Source of the DNA: a virus
Reading direction: 5' to 3' (one strand)
DNA: 49,964 bases
IMG/VR virus record: IMGVR_UViG_3300009164_000109
Span: 1-49,964 of that record
A program made the position numbers and the translations under genes. The notes beneath the pieces were generated by a model that had not been told where the DNA came from, did not search any database, and saw only the letters and a program-made list of their open reading frames with translations. Every line of letters starts with the position of its first letter. The first letter of the stretch is position 1. Of this stretch, positions 4,102 through 25,892 are shown in pieces.

Positions 4102-4660
4102 TTATTCTTTTAATATTATTTGTACAACAATAGGTCGAAAATCATTACCAAGGTTAATAGATAGTTTTAAAAATCAATTAACCCCGAATGATTATTTTAC
4201 AATAATTTCAGATACCAATCATGAAATTGTCGGAGACATCTTATCTAATTACACTTTTAATTTTAAAGTAAATCACATAATAAATGACGGTGAAAAATTA
4301 GGGAAATATGGACATCCTTTATTAAATAAATACATCAATGATGTTGAAGGTGATTTTATTATGTTTGCAGATGATGACGATTATTATGTTGATGACGCAT
4401 TTAGTAATATTAGAAAATTTGTGGTAGAAAAAAAATTATACATTTTTAAACATAAATGGGGAGAGACGATTAATTGGACCATAAAAGAAGTAATACTTGG
4501 TAATATTGGTAAATGTATGGGAGTAATTCCTAATACAAAAGAATTACCAAAATTTACTGAAGATATTTTTGGGGATGGTTTATTTTATGAGGAACTGTCT
4601 AAAATGATGGATTATGAATTTGTGGATAAAATAATATATAAAGTAAGAGATACTATATGA
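4082..4660 (+). CDS. Family 2-like glycosyltransferase, short form
   Basis: This protein of about 190 aa begins with a GT2-type strand (FNIICTTIGR, then PRLIDSF) and carries FADDDDYYVDDAF, the DxD-type motif of GT-A enzymes. It is short for GT2 (usually 230-300 aa), so the acceptor side may be minimal. Starts at 4082, 4091 and 4094 are all possible; 4094 gives MSNYSF and the most typical N-terminus. The gene overlaps its upstream neighbour, and its stop overlaps the next start as ATGA, so it is part of the same translational unit. Confidence 0.7.
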   Translation: MKNMMSNYSFNIICTTIGRKSLPRLIDSFKNQLTPNDYFTIISDTNHEIVGDILSNYTFNFKVNHIINDGEKLGKYGHPLLNKYINDVEGDFIMFADDDDYYVDDAFSNIRKFVVEKKLYIFKHKWGETINWTIKEVILGNIGKCMGVIPNTKELPKFTEDIFGDGLFYEELSKMMDYEFVDKIIYKVRDTI

Positions 4661-6330
4661 GTAATATAACATTAGTAACAGGAATTTGGGATATTGGTAG
4701 AGGAGACTTATCCGAAGGATGGTCAAGGTCATACCAACACTATTTAGATAAATTTGAACAACTTTTAGATGTTCAAGAGAATATGATAATTTTTGGAGAC
4801 GAGAGTCTTAAAGAATTTGTTTTTAGAAAAAGAAATGAATCAAATACTCAATTTATTGTTAGACCAATGAATTGGTTTACATCTTCTGAGTTTTTTCCAT
4901 TAATTCAAAACATTAGAAACAACCCTAACTGGTATACCCAAACCGGTTGGTTAGAACAATCAACACAAGCAAAATTAGAAAACTACAATCCTCTTGTAAT
5001 GTCAAAAGTTTTTTTATTACACGATGCTAAAATATTTGATAAATTTGATTCCGAATATATGTTTTGGATAGATGGTGGTTTAACAAATACAGTCCACCCG
5101 GGATATTTTACTCATGACAAAGTTTTAGATAAGTTATCAAAATATATCTCCAAATTTTCTTTTATTAGTTTCCCTTATGGTGCCGAAACAGAAATACATG
5201 GTTTTGAATATAATAAGTTAAACTCAATTGCTGGTGATAAAGTAACTAAAGTTTCTCGAGGTGGATTCTTTGGTGGTCCCAAAAGTTCAATAAGTGATAT
5301 TAACGGAATTTACTATGGGTTATTAAAATCTACATTACAAGAAGGTTACATGGGAACTGAAGAATCAATCTTTAGTATAATGTCATATAAACACTCTGAT
5401 TTAATTAATTACTTTGAAATTGAGTCAAGTGGACTGGTTGGAAAGTTCTTTGAAGATTTAAAAGATGATAAGTTAATACCAAAGAATGAATCCAAAATTA
5501 GTGTTGAAAATACTTTAGACACGAGTAAAGTGGGTCTTTATGTTTTAACATTTAATAGTCCTAATCAATTTAAAACTTTAATTAAATCGTTTGAAACATA
5601 TGATAATGATTATTTGTTAAAAACAAAAAAATATTTGTTAGATAATTCAACTGATTTATCAACAACTGAAGAGTATTTGAAACTATGTGAAGAACATAAT
5701 TTTGAACACATTAAAAAAGAAAATCTTGGAATTTGTGGTGGAAGACAATGGATTGCGGAACATTTTAATGAAACTGATTTAGATTATTATTTGTTTTTTG
5801 AAGACGATATGTTCTTTTTTCCTAATGAAGGTACAGTATGTAGAAACGGATTTAATCGATATGTTCCGAATTTATATACTAAATCTTTAGAAATAATTAA
5901 AAAAGAAAATTTTGATTTTTTAAAGTTAAATTATTCAGAATTTTATGGTGATAATGGAACACAATGGTCATGGTATAATGTACCACAATCAGTGAGAGAA
6001 GAATTTTGGCCGGATAAACCATCATTACCTCATTTGGGTTTAGACCCAAATGCTCCAAAAACTAAATTTACGTCAGTTTTATCTCATAAAGGATTACCAT
6101 ATGGTTCAGGAGAGGTTTATTATTGTAATTGGCCTCAAATTGTTAGTCGACATGGTAATAAAAAAATGTTTTTAGATACTACTTGGGGACACCCATTTGA
6201 GCAAACTTGGATGAGTCATATGTATCAATTAGTTAAAAAAGGTGAATTATTTTCAGGGTTATTATTATTAACTCCAACGGAGCATGATAGGTTTGAACAT
6301 TATAGCGGAGATTTGCGTAAAGAGAGCTAA
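4657..6330 (+). CDS. Two-domain HtrL/YibB plus GT2-like glycosyltransferase
   Basis: Residues 1 to about 270 form an HtrL/YibB-like domain (VTGIWDIGRGD at the start, FWIDGG at 136-141, GGFFGG at 202-207, then EESIFS). Residues from about 292 form a second transferase-like domain starting VGLYVLTFNSPNQ, with an acidic FFEDDMF motif at 381-387. A bifunctional sugar transferase is the simplest reading; donor and acceptor are unknown. The start overlaps the previous stop as ATGA. The gene ends in a strong terminator shared with the convergent HNH gene, closing the glycosyltransferase operon. Confidence 0.65.
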   Translation: MSNITLVTGIWDIGRGDLSEGWSRSYQHYLDKFEQLLDVQENMIIFGDESLKEFVFRKRNESNTQFIVRPMNWFTSSEFFPLIQNIRNNPNWYTQTGWLEQSTQAKLENYNPLVMSKVFLLHDAKIFDKFDSEYMFWIDGGLTNTVHPGYFTHDKVLDKLSKYISKFSFISFPYGAETEIHGFEYNKLNSIAGDKVTKVSRGGFFGGPKSSISDINGIYYGLLKSTLQEGYMGTEESIFSIMSYKHSDLINYFEIESSGLVGKFFEDLKDDKLIPKNESKISVENTLDTSKVGLYVLTFNSPNQFKTLIKSFETYDNDYLLKTKKYLLDNSTDLSTTEEYLKLCEEHNFEHIKKENLGICGGRQWIAEHFNETDLDYYLFFEDDMFFFPNEGTVCRNGFNRYVPNLYTKSLEIIKKENFDFLKLNYSEFYGDNGTQWSWYNVPQSVREEFWPDKPSLPHLGLDPNAPKTKFTSVLSHKGLPYGSGEVYYCNWPQIVSRHGNKKMFLDTTWGHPFEQTWMSHMYQLVKKGELFSGLLLLTPTEHDRFEHYSGDLRKES

Positions 6331-12871: not shown

Positions 12872-13597
12872 TTATTTTTTTAAATTATTAATTTTTGTTT
12901 CAATTTTCATTTCATATAATTTGGAAACAAAATCCCAATTTACCACTTTCCAAAAGTTTGTGATATATTCGTCTCGTTTATTTCGATACTTAAGGTAGTA
13001 AGCGTGTTCCCATAAATCTAAACCTAATAGTGGGAACCCTCCATCTTCAATAACATTCATTAATGGGTTGTCTTGATTTGGAGTTGACATAATTTTTAAG
13101 GTATTTCTTGAGGTTAAAACCAACCATACCCATCCGGAACCAAATCTATCTTTGGCAATAGTTTCAAATTCCTTTTTAAAATCAGAAAAATTACCGTATT
13201 GTTTGTTAATTTTTATTAACAAATCACCTTTAAGTTTTGTGGGAGTTGGTGACAACATATTCCAAAACATTGCATGATTAAATGCCCCTCCTGCGTTGTT
13301 CCTTATTGTTTTGTCAAATCGACCAATTGTTTTAATTATTTGTTCTAATTCTAAATCCCCGTATTTTTTTTTTGACAACGCATCATTTAATTTTTTGACA
13401 TAAGACTTGTAATGTTTGTTGTAATGAAATTCCATTGTCTCGGGGTCAATAAATTGTTTCAAGGCAGAATAAGAGTAAGGAAGTTTCTCAATTCCTATTT
13501 TTTTCATTTCTGTAATTAACATATTTTTTTCTTTAATTACGTGACCCTCAAGAATTTTTGTTTCTAACTGTTGAATTTTTTGTTCTATTTTTTTCAT
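12872..13597 (-). CDS. sodA: Manganese-type superoxide dismutase
   Basis: The 241-aa protein converts superoxide to hydrogen peroxide and oxygen. After a 35-residue charged extension, the Fe/Mn SOD fold begins at LPYSYSALKQF. Metal ligands are H58 (EFHYNKH), H108 (GGAFNH), D194 and H198 (LDLWEHAYY). H62 and Y66 occupy the substrate-gate positions. Gly104 and Gln175 (NQDNPL) follow the Mn rather than the Fe pattern. All key residues are present, so it is probably active. It lies downstream of the SNF2 helicase with its own TATTTATA element at 13619-13626. Phage-encoded SODs are uncommon; protection of the infected cell is a plausible role. Confidence 0.93.
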   Translation of the reverse strand: MKKIEQKIQQLETKILEGHVIKEKNMLITEMKKIGIEKLPYSYSALKQFIDPETMEFHYNKHYKSYVKKLNDALSKKKYGDLELEQIIKTIGRFDKTIRNNAGGAFNHAMFWNMLSPTPTKLKGDLLIKINKQYGNFSDFKKEFETIAKDRFGSGWVWLVLTSRNTLKIMSTPNQDNPLMNVIEDGGFPLLGLDLWEHAYYLKYRNKRDEYITNFWKVVNWDFVSKLYEMKIETKINNLKK

Positions 13598-13639: not shown

Positions 13640-16486
13640 TTAACGACGCATTTCATTGATTCTCTTTAAAATTTCTTCAGCGGCGTCGGCAGTATTTTGA
13701 TTATCACCCATAACGGTTGCAATCACTTGTTTTTTATTATGAAGTATGTCGTAAATAATTCCCTCAATTGTGTTTTCAAATATCGGGTAATAAACTAGTA
13801 CATTATTTTTCTGCCCATATCTGTATGCCCGGTCTTCCGCCTGTGCATGGTCAGACGGTAAGAATGATAAGTCATTAAAGATTACCGCTTCTGCAGATGT
13901 CAATGTAATACCAACTCCGGATGCTTTAATATTTCCAACAAATACCTTTATCTTATCGTTTTCTTGAAATTGGTCAACACTAAATTGTCTTCCAACTTTA
14001 GACATTGAACCGTCAAGTTTAACCGCAGACTTCCCAAAATGTTCTGTAATTTTATTTAATGAATCTGTAAAGTTACAAAAAATTATAACTTTTTTATCTT
14101 GTTCGATAATATTTTCAGCAATTTCTATTGTTTGACTTATTTTTTCATCTGCAATGATTTGACGAATTTTAGTTAATTTTGTAAATTGAACTGTTAAAGA
14201 TTTTGATTCTTCCGGATTCTTCTCGTACCAATTATAATAATCCCCCATCACTTCCTCATAAAGTTTAGACTTTAATCTTAGATAAACTGGTGTAATAATT
14301 TTGTCGGGTAAATCTAAAACATTTTCTTTTAATCTTCTTAAAGTTAATCCTGCAGTTCTATCTCGTAATTCTTCAAGATTAGATGCTCCTTGAACATTCC
14401 AAATTTTTCTCGGACCAACTTTGAATTGAAAACCCGCACAGTAACGAACCGCATATGCTAACCAATTTTTACTCACAGGTGAATCAATTAAACTCAGTAA
14501 ATTAAAATAGTCCATTGGACGGGAAGTCATTGGAGTACCCGATAATAACCACAATCTATTTATGTTTTTAACAACATCATTAATTAGCTTTGTTCTTTGA
14601 GCTTGAGGATTTTTAATGTAATGACAATTACTAACTAATATTGAATTCGCGAAATAATTATGATTATCTTTAATTTCTAAATCATAGACTCTTGTATTTT
14701 TTGAAGACACATTTGAGGATTTGTCGTAACTTCCTCGTTCCAAAATCTCAATACTTTCCACCCTAACGAATTTAATACTTCTGTTTTTCTTTTGTCTAAG
14801 AATTTCCATTTTTTTGTTTTGTGAGACTTTCCATCTATTTCTATTACAATTTTTTGATGAGTATTTCCAATATCTACTTTGTAACATGGGGGTAAACTTT
14901 TGAATGACAGTTTGACATTTTCTGTTAAAATTGGTAATTCCATTACCCACCCCTCTCCTAATAAATGATGTAGAGTTTCTTGTTGAATAGTTATTTTTCC
15001 ATTCCCTCCCCTTGATAGAAAGGTTCGACCAATTAATTTTTCTCTCATTTTTTCCAAAGTTTCCGGATTGAACATTGGATTTTTTATTTTCATCCTTTCT
15101 GAAGATAATTGGGACATATGTGGATTTTTCATGTGAGTTTTTTTCATATGTTCTGACCAACCCCCATTTTTTTCTATTGTTTTTCTTCTTTTTTCCCTCA
15201 CTTCTGAATCGTTTGACTTTACAATGTTTGAACAAATTACCGAACAATATGTTTTTAACATCATTTTCTTCTCTGTTGTAAATTCCATTAAATTCCCACA
15301 TTTCAAACAGGTCTTTTGAAATTTTATTTCTTTTGGTTTCTGAGGTGAAATTTTGTTTTTTATTATTGACGCACAACTTTTTGAACAACTCTTTGACTTT
15401 TTCCAAATTTGTTTCTTTGTTAGTGGTTTCTGACAACATATACAAGTCATCGGTTGTTGTGAGGTCTTTTGCTCTGACATATCCTTTATTATTTGTATAG
15501 AATTTATGATTATCTGTACATTCTATAAATAGTCCGTTGTTGAGTTTTATTTTGTATATAATGTTTTTATTTTTTCTAATCCATCTACATATTTCTTTAT
15601 ACTCTAATTTTTTTTCTTTGTGATTAAATGTTAATATTTTAACATCCAACCCATTTTCCACAACATCACCAATATTCATTTTACCTCTTTCAGTCATAAT
15701 TTTTGTATCATAAGTAAAACATTCGTCAACAATTACTAAATCAAAATTTGATTTTAATATTTGAGACTCATCTTTTTTCTTAAGGTCATGAAAATTCTTC
15801 ATAATATCGTAATTAACGATAACAAAATCATGTTCCGTACTAAATTGTTTACCTTCTGAAATAAAAATTGGTCGGTCAGAATAATTTTCAATCTCTCTTT
15901 TCCAATTGATTTTAAGAGTTGCCGGACAAATAATTAAAATTTTCTTTGCTCCGGTCTCTAACGCAGCCATAATTGTTGAAGTAGTTTTTCCTAATCCCAT
16001 ATCATCGGCAAGGATAAACTTTTTATTCTCAACTAATTTTTGGACAGCTTCTTTTTGATGTTCAAGAGGGGGACGATTAGAGTATTTTGAATAATCAATT
16101 ACAACATCCTTAACTGTATTATCTTTAATGATTGCGGCTTTTGGTAACCAAAAGTGGTGAAGTTCCTCATTCTCAAACACTTTACCCCAAATATGATAAG
16201 CCTTCTCTTTATCACATAATAATTTCTCCACCCAAACCTTTTGTGGTATTTCAGTATACAATTTATCATCCGCAAGTTTTTGTGCAAAGTAAGTGTCAAG
16301 AATAACCCATTTCTTAGCAACCTTAGGTTGTTTATCGTGATTATTGATAATGTATTCTGATTGACTTCTTGTTGGATAAAATTTCCGATTTAATTGAGAT
16401 TTACGTTTCAATTCAATTAAATAATTATTTCCACCTTCGTAATCTTCTAATAAAGATAATGCTTTTGATTCTAAACTAACATTCAT
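13640..16486 (-). CDS. SNF2-type DNA helicase/ATPase interrupted by an intein
   Basis: The 948-codon frame encodes a helicase of about 583 aa plus a 365-aa intein. Exteins show Walker A DDMGLGKTTST (161-171), motif II VDE-CH split by the intein, motif III LLSGTPMTSRPMDYF (647-661) and motif VI QAEDRAYRYGQ (882-892), all SNF2-like. T4-like phages use such ATPases in recombination and fork repair. The intein starts at C256 (CFTYDTKIM), carries block B GLFIECTDNHKF (T324, H327), and ends in YFANSILVSN (N620) before Cys+1 (621). Splicing would restore VDECHYIKNP. The middle of the intein frame is K/N/R/S-rich shadow translation of a nested endonuclease. The start overlaps the SET stop by one base. 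Confidence 0.9.
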   Translation of the reverse strand: MNVSLESKALSLLEDYEGGNNYLIELKRKSQLNRKFYPTRSQSEYIINNHDKQPKVAKKWVILDTYFAQKLADDKLYTEIPQKVWVEKLLCDKEKAYHIWGKVFENEELHHFWLPKAAIIKDNTVKDVVIDYSKYSNRPPLEHQKEAVQKLVENKKFILADDMGLGKTTSTIMAALETGAKKILIICPATLKINWKREIENYSDRPIFISEGKQFSTEHDFVIVNYDIMKNFHDLKKKDESQILKSNFDLVIVDECFTYDTKIMTERGKMNIGDVVENGLDVKILTFNHKEKKLEYKEICRWIRKNKNIIYKIKLNNGLFIECTDNHKFYTNNKGYVRAKDLTTTDDLYMLSETTNKETNLEKVKELFKKLCVNNKKQNFTSETKRNKISKDLFEMWEFNGIYNREENDVKNILFGNLFKHCKVKRFRSEGKKKKNNRKKWGLVRTYEKNSHEKSTYVPIIFRKDENKKSNVQSGNFGKNERKINWSNLSIKGREWKNNYSTRNSTSFIRRGVGNGITNFNRKCQTVIQKFTPMLQSRYWKYSSKNCNRNRWKVSQNKKMEILRQKKNRSIKFVRVESIEILERGSYDKSSNVSSKNTRVYDLEIKDNHNYFANSILVSNCHYIKNPQAQRTKLINDVVKNINRLWLLSGTPMTSRPMDYFNLLSLIDSPVSKNWLAYAVRYCAGFQFKVGPRKIWNVQGASNLEELRDRTAGLTLRRLKENVLDLPDKIITPVYLRLKSKLYEEVMGDYYNWYEKNPEESKSLTVQFTKLTKIRQIIADEKISQTIEIAENIIEQDKKVIIFCNFTDSLNKITEHFGKSAVKLDGSMSKVGRQFSVDQFQENDKIKVFVGNIKASGVGITLTSAEAVIFNDLSFLPSDHAQAEDRAYRYGQKNNVLVYYPIFENTIEGIIYDILHNKKQVIATVMGDNQNTADAAEEILKRINEMRR
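14627..15721 (-). other. Intein inside helicase motif II
   Basis: Codons 256-620 of the helicase frame. N-terminal splicing block A begins CFTYDTKIMTERG; block B contains TDNHKF followed by GYVRAKDL; block F is RVYDLEIKDNHNYF; block G is ILVSN followed by Cys. The penultimate residue is Ser rather than the usual His. Splicing would join Glu255 to Cys621. The middle of this frame has no LAGLIDADG or HNH motif; the endonuclease is in another frame. Confidence 0.9.
14677..15480 (-). CDS. Nested Vsr/EDxHD-type homing endonuclease
   Basis: This 267-aa protein is encoded on the same strand as the helicase but in a different frame, entirely within the intein. It has two zinc-knuckle clusters (C13, C15/C16, C32, C36 and C58, C61, C79, C83), a NUMOD-like NPMFNPETLEKMREK (134-148), and a C-terminal Vsr-like nuclease core: E214-I-D216, H220, D229, then GWKVLRFWNEEV (240-251). 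The Vsr-related EDxHD family is known from phage inteins and fractured genes. Its start lies in intein block B and its stop in block F. M11 is an alternative start. It probably cuts intein-free helicase alleles. Confidence 0.85.
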   Translation of the reverse strand: MSEQKTSQQPMTCICCQKPLTKKQIWKKSKSCSKSCASIIKNKISPQKPKEIKFQKTCLKCGNLMEFTTEKKMMLKTYCSVICSNIVKSNDSEVREKRRKTIEKNGGWSEHMKKTHMKNPHMSQLSSERMKIKNPMFNPETLEKMREKLIGRTFLSRGGNGKITIQQETLHHLLGEGWVMELPILTENVKLSFKSLPPCYKVDIGNTHQKIVIEIDGKSHKTKKWKFLDKRKTEVLNSLGWKVLRFWNEEVTTNPQMCLQKIQESMI

Positions 16487-16884
16487 TAAATAATTTCCGT
16501 ATGTGTTCTCCCGTCATTCCAATATGAATCATCTCCATAAAATACAAAAATTTCTTCGTCGGGGTTTATTTTTTTTAAAGAAACAAATTCAAATGTTCTA
16601 TTTTCATAATTTGTTCTCCAATATGCGTTAGGTTCTGATGAGTGATTGTAAATCATTGCACACCCTGTAGGGGCAACTTTTTTTTCCCAATCAATAACAT
16701 TTGATGGGTAGTTAAATCGATAATCAATTAAAATATGTGTGGATTCTCCTTTTGGTATATGCATATCAATAACTGCACATTCCTCAAGTATTTCCCCTTC
16801 CATTATAGTTTGTAGAGCGAAAACACCCAATCCGTGAATTGGACTTTCACTCACATATATTTTGGATGGTGGTAATATCTTCAT
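16486..16884 (-). CDS. SET-domain protein, putative lysine methyltransferase
   Basis: This 132-aa protein is a minimal SET domain: HGLGVFA (17-23), the SAM/pseudoknot motif NHSSEPNAYW (80-89), and a C-terminal INPDEEIFVFYGDDSYW (106-122), in which Y116 fits the catalytic tyrosine. SET proteins transfer methyl groups from SAM to protein lysines. No pre- or post-SET zinc cysteines are present, as in other small bacterial and viral versions. The substrate is unknown; host or virion proteins are both possible. It heads the minus-strand operon and its TAA overlaps the helicase ATG by one base. Confidence 0.85.
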   Translation of the reverse strand: MKILPPSKIYVSESPIHGLGVFALQTIMEGEILEECAVIDMHIPKGESTHILIDYRFNYPSNVIDWEKKVAPTGCAMIYNHSSEPNAYWRTNYENRTFEFVSLKKINPDEEIFVFYGDDSYWNDGRTHTEII

Positions 16885-22679: not shown

Positions 22680-25600
22680 ATGGCAACATCACAAGCAAAT
22701 CAAAAAGTTTTCGTTTCACCGGGTGTGTACACTTCAGAAACTGACTTATCATTCGTAGCACAAAGTGTGGGTGTTACTACCTTAGGTTTAGTTGGTGAGA
22801 CTTTAAAAGGTCCTGCTTTCGAACCGGTATTCATAACAAACTACGACGAATTCCAAGCCTTTTTTGGAGGAACGGAACCAACAAAATTTGTTAACACACA
22901 AATCCCTAAATATGAAGCGGCATACATTGCTAAATCTTACTTGCAACAATCAAATCAATTGTTTTTCACAAGAATCTTAGGTTTATCAGGATATGATGCA
23001 GGACCATCTTGGAGTATTAGAGTTACGGCAAATGTTGACCCAACAACTATTAATCAAAACCCAATTGGTTCCACTTCTTGGTCGGTATCTTTTACAGGTT
23101 CAACCGATACAGGAACCGTTAGTTTTACTAGTGGGTCATTTCCATCTGCGGTTCACACAGATTTCTTTAATCAATATCGACTTTCTGATGGAAGTACATC
23201 AACATACGATGACGATATAACAAACACTATACTAACATTAGTTGGTGACCCAACATTGTCTGCAACAACTGCCGTTGCTTATGGTTCAATACCTGAAAGT
23301 GATTATTATAATTTATTAAACCAATATGGTGCTATTGTAAATTCATATGGTGTTGATTCTCTTGATTTGTCAAATAATGATTTGACTGCTGGTCAAAATG
23401 ATTCATGGTACTACGCTAATTTTGATAATTATACAGGAAACTCTTACTCAGGTTATTCATTTGACTATATATTTAATTCAATTACTACGGGAGCGACTGG
23501 TAGTTTTTCAGGAACTATATCGGGAGATTACTATCGTTTTACCGGAACCGCATATACTGAATATAATAACATGGTTGTTGCAACAATTCGCTCAAGAGGT
23601 ATCTCGTTATATGTTAATAGTTCAACAAGTGATAATCACGGACCAGTTTACGAAGTAAGTGGATTAACAAATGTTAATTTACTATCTACTGACCAATACG
23701 CTGAAATTAATCAAAACCCATACGCATCATTTGGATTATCAGGTGTAACTAAAGATGGTGATAATTTTACTTTTGAAACAAATTTATCCGCATCATCTTC
23801 TAAATTTATAACTAAAGTATTAGGTGTTGATAACTTTGGAAAATCAAGAAATGAAGTCCCTTTATTTGTTGAAGAGATTTATCCGGGTTCATTAGCATAT
23901 GCCTATAACCAAGGATACATTAAAGGTATTAACCCTGTGTTAGTTTCGTTACCCGGTGCTAAAAGTGAGGACCCAACATCAATAGCATATAATTTGGCCC
24001 AATATCAATCACCAAGTACTCCTTATCTAGTTTCAGAATTGAGAGGTAATAAAGTTTATAAATTATTTAAATTTGTCTCAATTTCTGATGGAGACGCAGC
24101 AAATTTAGAGGTTAAAGTTTCAATTGCTAATTTATCATTTAATAATATGACATTTGATGTATTAGTAAGAAATTTCTTTGATACGGATTCTAACCCTGTT
24201 GTCATTGAAAAATTTACTAACTGTAATATGGACCCTAACTCTAACAACTTTGTTGCTAAGAAACTTGGTACAACTAACGGAGAATATGCGTTACTTTCAA
24301 AATATGTAATGATTGAAATGGCGGATGAGGCACCAATTGACTCAATTCCTTGTGGATTTGAAGGGTATACTCAAAGAGAATACGATACAGTTTTAAACCC
24401 ATCACCGGTTCCAAAATTTAAAACAAAATATTTCTTCCCTGGTGAAACAATTGCTAATCCACCGTTTGGAGCTGCAACAGGAGGTCAAAATCTTGTGGAA
24501 TCTCCGGGAGACATTGTTAGAAGAACTTATTTAGGTTTTTCAACACAATATGGTATTGATGAGTCATTCTTAACTTATAAAGGTAAACAAAATCCACAAT
24601 CGTGGGTTATTGCACCTCAACCGATTGAAGGGGCTTCTTGGAATTATGTGAGTAAAGGTTTCCACATGGACTCAGGTGCAACTGTGGTTACAATTACCAA
24701 TACTTCCTTAACTAGTGGTCAAACAGCGTTTGAATGTGGTACGGCTGAATTTAGAACAGACCCTGATACTCAAGAGAATCCATATTACTTCATCTACTCA
24801 AGAAAATATACTTTATGTTTTGCTGGAGGATTTGACGGATGGGACATCTATAGAGAGTTTAGAACAAATCAAGATAGATTCCAATTAGGTCAATCAGGAT
24901 TCTTAGCAGGAGCATCGTCTTCTACAAGATACCCTAATGCAACAGGTAGCGGTTTATTTAAAAGAATTACAGTTGCTAATAACACTCAAGATTTTGCAAA
25001 TACTGATTACTACGCTTACTTACTTGGTATTCTAACTTTTTCAAATCCTGAAGCAACAAATATAAATGTGTTTGCAACATCAAGTATTGATTATATCAAT
25101 AACTCTAACTTAGTTGAAGAGGCTATTGACATGATTCAATACCAAAGAGCTGATTCTGTTTATATTGCAACAACTCCTGACTACAACATGTATACTCCGG
25201 ATTCAACAAATTCTCAAGATATAATTTATTCTCAAGAAGCGGTTGATAATTTAGATAATACAGGAATCGACTCTAACTATACCGCAACTTATTATCCTTG
25301 GATTTTAACAAGAGACACTGTAAATAATACACAAATTTATTTACCTGCAACAGGTGAGGTTTGTAGAAATTTAGCATTAACAGATAACATTGCTTTCCCA
25401 TGGTTTGCATCTGCGGGCTATACTAGAGGTCTTGTAAATTCAATAAAAGCTAGAGTTAAATTAACTCAAGAAGATAGAGACACATTATACCAAGGTAGGA
25501 TTAACCCTATCGCTACTTTCTCTGATGTAGGTACAGTTATTTGGGGTAATAAAACGTTACAAGTCGCAGACACGGCACTTAATAGATTGAATGTAAGAAG

Positions 25601-25892
25601 ATTATTACTTCAAGCTCGTAAGTTGATTTCTGCGGTGGCGGTGAGATTATTGTTTGAACAAAACGACCAAATTGTTAGACAACAATTCTTAGACAGTGTT
25701 AACCCAATTTTAGACTCAATTAGAAGAGACCGAGGTTTATATGATTTCCGTGTAACGGTTTCATCATCACCTGAGGATTTAGATAGAAATACTTTAACAG
25801 GTAAAATTTATTTAAAACCAACAAAAGCTTTAGAATTTATAGATATTGAATTCTTTATTACTCCAACAGGAGCATCGTTTGAGAATATTTAA
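22680..25892 (+). CDS. 18: Tail sheath protein (gp18-like)
   Basis: This 1070-aa protein begins with SPGVYTSETD...GLVGETLKGPAF, the sheath N-terminal strand exchange region, and ends with a conserved C-terminal domain (LNVRRLLLQARKLISAVAVR, then GLYDFRV and FIDIEFFITP). The sheath contracts around the tube to drive injection. T4 gp18 is 659 aa; the extra length lies mostly in Ser/Thr/Tyr/Gly-rich insertions around residues 110-390, probably surface domains. A terminator follows. The start has no Shine-Dalgarno, only an A/T-rich leader. Confidence 0.95.
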   Translation: MATSQANQKVFVSPGVYTSETDLSFVAQSVGVTTLGLVGETLKGPAFEPVFITNYDEFQAFFGGTEPTKFVNTQIPKYEAAYIAKSYLQQSNQLFFTRILGLSGYDAGPSWSIRVTANVDPTTINQNPIGSTSWSVSFTGSTDTGTVSFTSGSFPSAVHTDFFNQYRLSDGSTSTYDDDITNTILTLVGDPTLSATTAVAYGSIPESDYYNLLNQYGAIVNSYGVDSLDLSNNDLTAGQNDSWYYANFDNYTGNSYSGYSFDYIFNSITTGATGSFSGTISGDYYRFTGTAYTEYNNMVVATIRSRGISLYVNSSTSDNHGPVYEVSGLTNVNLLSTDQYAEINQNPYASFGLSGVTKDGDNFTFETNLSASSSKFITKVLGVDNFGKSRNEVPLFVEEIYPGSLAYAYNQGYIKGINPVLVSLPGAKSEDPTSIAYNLAQYQSPSTPYLVSELRGNKVYKLFKFVSISDGDAANLEVKVSIANLSFNNMTFDVLVRNFFDTDSNPVVIEKFTNCNMDPNSNNFVAKKLGTTNGEYALLSKYVMIEMADEAPIDSIPCGFEGYTQREYDTVLNPSPVPKFKTKYFFPGETIANPPFGAATGGQNLVESPGDIVRRTYLGFSTQYGIDESFLTYKGKQNPQSWVIAPQPIEGASWNYVSKGFHMDSGATVVTITNTSLTSGQTAFECGTAEFRTDPDTQENPYYFIYSRKYTLCFAGGFDGWDIYREFRTNQDRFQLGQSGFLAGASSSTRYPNATGSGLFKRITVANNTQDFANTDYYAYLLGILTFSNPEATNINVFATSSIDYINNSNLVEEAIDMIQYQRADSVYIATTPDYNMYTPDSTNSQDIIYSQEAVDNLDNTGIDSNYTATYYPWILTRDTVNNTQIYLPATGEVCRNLALTDNIAFPWFASAGYTRGLVNSIKARVKLTQEDRDTLYQGRINPIATFSDVGTVIWGNKTLQVADTALNRLNVRRLLLQARKLISAVAVRLLFEQNDQIVRQQFLDSVNPILDSIRRDRGLYDFRVTVSSSPEDLDRNTLTGKIYLKPTKALEFIDIEFFITPTGASFENI

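Follow-up and report, generated by a model that had tools for sequence, protein, structure and literature searches.

A virus record from IMG/VR (IMGVR_UViG_3300009164_000109), analysed here over 49,964 nucleotides (in the following, the window), carries a helicase gene with an intein, and inside this intein lies a homing endonuclease gene that is read in a different frame of the same strand. This raises the question of what the two overlapping frames encode, and whether the intein frame is open across the endonuclease gene by chance, as a by-product of composition, or because it is kept open.

Layout of the helicase, the intein and the endonuclease gene

The SNF2-type helicase ORF (13640..16486, minus strand, 948 aa) runs without a stop codon through the intein and matched SNF2 (4e-22), Helicase_C (4e-16), and the DNA helicase family phrog_62 (5e-105) in profile searches. 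The intein comprises 365 aa (14627..15721, minus strand), corresponding to helicase codons 256–620, which are exactly the boundaries that had been proposed in a sequence-only reading of the window. It was recognised above cut-off by TIGR01445 (intein N-terminus, helicase residues 256–331, 6.3e-13) as well as TIGR01443 (intein C-terminus, residues 600–621, 4.3e-7), and Pfam Intein_splicing also matches. The insertion site lies in the Walker B motif, the DECH box of the helicase (DE/CFTYDT...LVSN/CHY), and the +1 residue of the C-extein is encoded by a TGT Cys codon (14624..14626, minus strand), where the inspected alleles without intein have GCN (Ala). The intein starts with Cys, contains block A and block B with the Thr-x-x-His motif, and ends with a block F/G in SN, which is followed by Cys. 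In an alignment of 36 inteins C1, F2, H72, V363, and N365 are invariant and T69 is nearly so; the penultimate residue is Ser, not His, in the window clade. The predicted structure has a HINT fold, with a Foldseek match to the Ssp DnaE intein 1zd7 at 1.6e-7 and 64 chains below 0.001. The N-terminal splicing half (residues 1–99 with C1 and block B TDNH; 15425..15721, minus strand; pLDDT about 90) and the C-terminal splicing half (residues 315–365, ending with VSN; 14627..14779, minus strand; supported by profile, alignment, and model) were modelled with confidence, whereas the shadow linker in between (residues 100–314; 14780..15424, minus strand; pLDDT about 40), which runs through the endonuclease gene, is predicted to be disordered. 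Read in the intein frame, the stretch across the endonuclease matches no nuclease domain.

The endonuclease gene (14677..15480, minus strand, 267 aa) is offset from the helicase ATG by 1006 nt, which leaves a remainder of 1 and thus places it in the +1 frame. This agrees with the earlier claim of an endonuclease in another same-strand frame of an otherwise intact intein, since there is no stop in the intein frame, and it means that the endonuclease is not fused into the intein frame as in a canonical intein. The N-terminal part is Cys-rich and zinc-finger-like (residues 13–84; 15229..15444, minus strand), with a CxxC...CxxxC pattern that is kept in most relatives. The DUF559/EDxHD-like catalytic domain (residues 200–265; 14686..14883, minus strand) is supported by the DUF559 match (7.5e-16), alignment, and fold, and the candidate catalytic residues E214, D216, H220, and D229 are invariant or conserved at over 90% in the endonuclease family alignments. 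The endonuclease model has a mean pLDDT of 90, and its C-terminal domain superimposes on 3HRL (Z 12.1), I-Bth0305I (3R3P; Z 10.9, rmsd 2.4, 88 aligned residues), and Vsr (Z 9.8). The predicted model therefore shows the Vsr-like catalytic fold of an EDxHD (I-Bth0305I-type) homing endonuclease, the kind of nuclease that had been named from the letters of the sequence. The catalytic-domain fold and a C-terminal nuclease placed after extended modules are shared with both I-Bth0305I and Vsr. For I-Bth0305I, however, the mobile element is a group I intron in phage recA rather than an intein.

Fractured phage genes, reportedly described by Dassa and colleagues in 2009, are said to contain split inteins that enclose a free-standing endonuclease gene. 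They would share with the window locus a free-standing Vsr/EDxHD-type endonuclease between two intein halves, but there the host ORF is broken into two and splicing occurs in trans, whereas here one continuous ORF of 948 aa is found. In the standard account intein endonucleases are fusions (PMC3943268). Canonical large inteins with a LAGLIDADG or HNH endonuclease in frame have in common with the window intein the HINT halves that flank the endonuclease region, the insertion at a conserved active-site motif, and homing; they differ in that the window endonuclease is separate and out of frame and the insert of the window intein is a disordered shadow peptide. The nearest known case is the ShiLan domain, described together with the Pacc40 gp60 insertion by Arsenault, Gosselin and Gogarten (2025, PMC11855218): here phage DNA methylases contain an HNH endonuclease that is out of frame, yet there is no intein. 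As in the window, the ShiLan insertion is mobile, unannotated, and open in the host frame, with the endonuclease encoded in a different frame. However, ShiLan has no splicing domain, its endonuclease is of the HNH and not the DUF559/EDxHD type and occupies the third frame (host +2), where the window endonuclease occupies host +1, and the insertion is thought to remain in the protein (PMC11855218); the window locus has a DUF559 nuclease and splicing domains. In the open literature that we searched, no intein with an endonuclease out of frame has been described, but a 2025 preprint on the “non-canonical architecture” of actinophage inteins may hold examples. Judging from its title and from its being cited in PMC11855218 for overlapping frames, this preprint may describe something similar.

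Related loci and traces of homing

Relatives were sought by the protein sequence of the endonuclease and not by the arrangement, which yielded 84 further loci from viral contigs, bacterial assemblies, and public phages, and then six more, so that 90 loci, nearly all of phage origin, were available besides the window. The scans were uneven, with one yielding no relatives and another four loci, and some loci represent one virus present in two collections. Clustering of the first 85 loci, window included, at 90% endonuclease identity resulted in 65 clusters. In each of the 90 relatives, the endonuclease is read in frame +1 relative to a single long ORF on the same strand. The sequence-only reading had called for a search for the same arrangement elsewhere and had named relatives whose frame is scattered with stops as the observation that would speak against it; the phase turned out to be identical in all of these loci, and an intein-frame stop across the endonuclease occurs in none of the 90. 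The viral and genome scans gave nested members of the endonuclease family exclusively, with neither free-standing nor in-frame ones among them, and the plasmid matches covered the nuclease domain alone, whereby the five examined are ordinary DUF559 genes. Among the public phages, the nested endonuclease is found in CP-T1, phi673, MR14, and Vibrio lentus phages. The public records have just a helicase, hypothetical, or similar protein annotated under the endonuclease match, so the “helicase” annotations of these cultured phages conceal a second gene, and in these isolates splicing, dual translation, and homing could be tested directly.

The insertion follows DE in 59 of the 61 clusters with settable boundaries, and in one cluster each it follows EE or a DEMHR variant; the +1 residue is Cys in 60 clusters and Ser in one. 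Judged by eye from their motifs, the hosts are SNF2/SF2 helicases and clamp-loader-like ATPases. The suggestion that the arrangement is a transient step towards a split intein does not hold: it is a stable architecture common to at least 65 divergent lineages in these helicases and ATPases. A Mantel comparison of the endonuclease, intein, and host distances (0.63, 0.54, and 0.65) did not discriminate.

The intein is absent from 79 of the 80 nearest helicase relatives, the sole intein-bearing one being L001 seen again (L155). The empty alleles that were inspected read DE/AH where the window helicase reads DE/CH, so that the Cys needed for splicing would have arrived with the intein. Compared to 13 distinct empty alleles, the identity of the window helicase is 0.11–0.17 below the among-empty level from about -60 to +180 of the site only, and beyond this range the window helicase is an ordinary member of its group. 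The divergent tract, with an upstream part (about -60 to -1; 15722..15781, minus strand) and a downstream part (about +1 to +180; 14447..14626, minus strand), appears as expected for a trace of co-conversion at homing, and it points indirectly to site-specific cleavage of the empty allele. A deletion allele is present in two loci (L029:3760-4302 and L030:3760-4302), whose exteins are 95–97% identical to those of the reference L056. Here, 552 nt (intein nt 394–945) are deleted at the short repeat CAAAGG, which removed most of the endonuclease, while the remaining mini-intein of 181 aa keeps every splicing block in frame. This allele indicates that the intein frame has a value that is independent of the endonuclease.

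Three further loci deserve mention. L180:1473-4772 contains two inteins in one helicase gene: the one in the P-loop (GKT) has, as judged by eye, an in-frame HNH-like motif, and the one in the DECH box has the out-of-frame DUF559 endonuclease. L084:2944-5706 is a member without the Walker B DE/C context in a gene that looks terminase-like, and thus the class may extend beyond helicases and clamp loaders. In L012:1684-4671, which differs from its near-twin L010, the host frame ends 5 nt past the endonuclease stop; this allele may have decayed or been fractured, or the assembly may be wrong here.

Probable functions of the two reading frames

Selection in both frames, a measurement that had been proposed along with the original observation, was determined from six close relatives including the window, all with inteins of 1095 nt. 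Over endonuclease codons 21–240, pN/pS is 0.26 in the endonuclease frame versus 1.30 in the intein frame, and because of the latter value the intein frame is considered a tolerated linker in this region. The intein-only parts outside of the overlap have values of 0.23 and 0.11. At the 3′ end of the endonuclease, both frames are constrained. In this dual-coding zone (14677..14760, minus strand), endonuclease codons 241–268 (GWKVLRFWNEEV..) overlie the intein strand FVRVESIEILERGSYD.., and variable sites are suppressed in both frames: endonuclease third positions vary in 4 of 28 codons compared to 160 of 220 over codons 21–240 (p = 3e-9), and intein third positions in 7 of 28 compared to 46 of 80 in the intein-only N part (p = 0.004). 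In the models, the same DNA encodes the intein strand FVRVESIEIL and the endonuclease strand WKVLRFW, and a strand folds in both, so that one segment of the overlap would serve two folds.

It is very probable that the locus represents a mobile intein with two functions in two overlapping frames of one strand, namely a splicing precursor and a free-standing homing endonuclease. The first frame would encode a helicase-intein-helicase precursor, in which the two HINT halves would fold with a disordered linker between them, and splicing would restore the helicase at its DE/CH box; this linker is a shadow reading of the endonuclease gene that is kept stop-free through synonymous choice. The second frame (+1) would provide a free-standing DUF559/EDxHD-type endonuclease from its own internal start, which would cut the empty Walker B (DEAH/DECH) site in the helicases of other phages, whereupon the intein would be copied into the cut helicase along with its Cys codon and some flanking sequence. 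The architecture, its conservation, the selection on both frames, and the homing footprint are documented in the sequences themselves; splicing, DNA cleavage, and the internal translation start are what we infer.

The proposed start of the endonuclease is an ATG (15478..15480, minus strand) with an A-rich leader and without a well-placed Shine-Dalgarno sequence, like nearly all other genes of the window, and a good Shine-Dalgarno sequence is also missing at this start throughout the window clade. The conservation of the ATG is weak evidence, because it is partly dictated by the intein codons GGA TAT GTN (Gly-Tyr-Val). It could be that ribosomes shift by +1 from the intein frame and make a fusion of N-intein and endonuclease instead of a free-standing enzyme, which would fit with the phase being always host +1 and with the many loci in which the endonuclease frame is already open before the conserved domain. 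We regard this as unlikely, since six relatives (L001, L002, L004, L005, L009, and L056) have an endonuclease-frame stop 12 nt before the ATG, which leaves almost no room for a shift and counts against frameshifting. Furthermore, a good Shine-Dalgarno sequence precedes an endonuclease start in several other loci, such as L017 (GGAGG), L022 (AGGAG), and L024 (AAAGGA).

Still less probable is that splicing has been lost and that the endonuclease is carried along by a helicase which tolerates the insert or has no need of it, as has been proposed for ShiLan. The Ser in place of the penultimate His in the window clade would be in line with such a loss. However, the insert is located inside Walker B, so that an unspliced helicase would probably be dead, and the intein-only parts are under the constraint given above. 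Moreover, the +1 Cys is maintained in nearly all clusters although the empty alleles have Ala, and the deletion allele retains the splicing frame.

Selection on the open intein frame

In the phase found here, a stop in the intein frame arises only where an endonuclease codon NNT stands directly before AA, AG, or GA, and NNC always avoids it. In the equivalent frame (gene frame +2) of 24 other window genes, 15.1% of 12,196 codons are stops and the longest open run spans 42 codons; from this control, the probability of 268 open codons is approximately 1e-19, in accordance with the earlier view that a stop-free shadow frame is unlikely to occur by chance. The corresponding frame of the five ordinary DUF559 genes from plasmids contains 3–14 stops, and an open frame by chance is ruled out by these controls and the following codon counts. 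At the risk codons of the window endonuclease, C and T are found at a ratio of 9:0, compared to 8:61 at other pyrimidine-ending codons (P = 3.8e-9). Across the 65 clusters, the risk codons have 890 C and no T, compared to 1186 C and 2565 T at other pyrimidine-ending codons and to 519 C and 1006 T in a tight control. These counts argue that the intein frame is held open by selection, as had been suspected from the window copy. It has only a very remote chance that the composition and codon usage of the endonuclease leave the intein frame open passively. Proteins rich in K, N, and R have few T-ending risk codons and the window copy offers just nine risk sites, but the ratio of 890:0 against the tight control refutes this explanation, and stops are common in the corresponding frame of the other window genes and the ordinary DUF559 genes. 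That a sequencing or assembly error moved an ordinary in-frame endonuclease out of frame is practically negligible, even though the window is a single virus record, since the phase is identical in 90 further loci including sequenced isolates, which refute it, and coordinated indels would be required at both frame boundaries.

The host +1 arrangement is able to persist because a change from NNT to NNC removes every possible intein-frame stop and leaves the endonuclease unchanged. In the alternative phase, Met before an A-initial codon creates TGA, which is mostly unavoidable (254 such sites in the 65 endonucleases), and across the 65 clusters 1303 stops were counted in the other same-strand frame. 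The constant phase is compatible with this synonymous escape and is equally explained by a single origin, and neither explanation excludes the other.

Overall, we consider it probable that these loci represent a widespread class of phage inteins, in which the +1 frame permanently holds the endonuclease as a free-standing gene, this phase being fixed as the only same-strand one that can always be opened synonymously. The class would be specialised on the Walker B boxes (DEAH/DECH) of NTPases that are unrelated to each other, and two proteins, both under constraint, would be encoded at its 3′ end. Such a class would supply the missing combination of an intein with a free-standing endonuclease, and its arrangement would uncouple the dose of the endonuclease from the host protein and from splicing. 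With at least 65 clusters, it would also provide a large natural set of overlapping genes, in which one frame is a real enzyme and the other a tolerated linker.

In the surroundings of the helicase gene, an iron/manganese superoxide dismutase gene (12872..13597, minus strand) lies directly downstream, and a gene for a small SET-domain protein (16486..16884, minus strand; 1.9e-13) overlaps the helicase start. The window also contains a contractile-tail sheath gene (22680..25892) and, as unusual phage cargo, a gene for an HtrL_YibB domain protein (4657..6330, plus strand; 3.7e-20).
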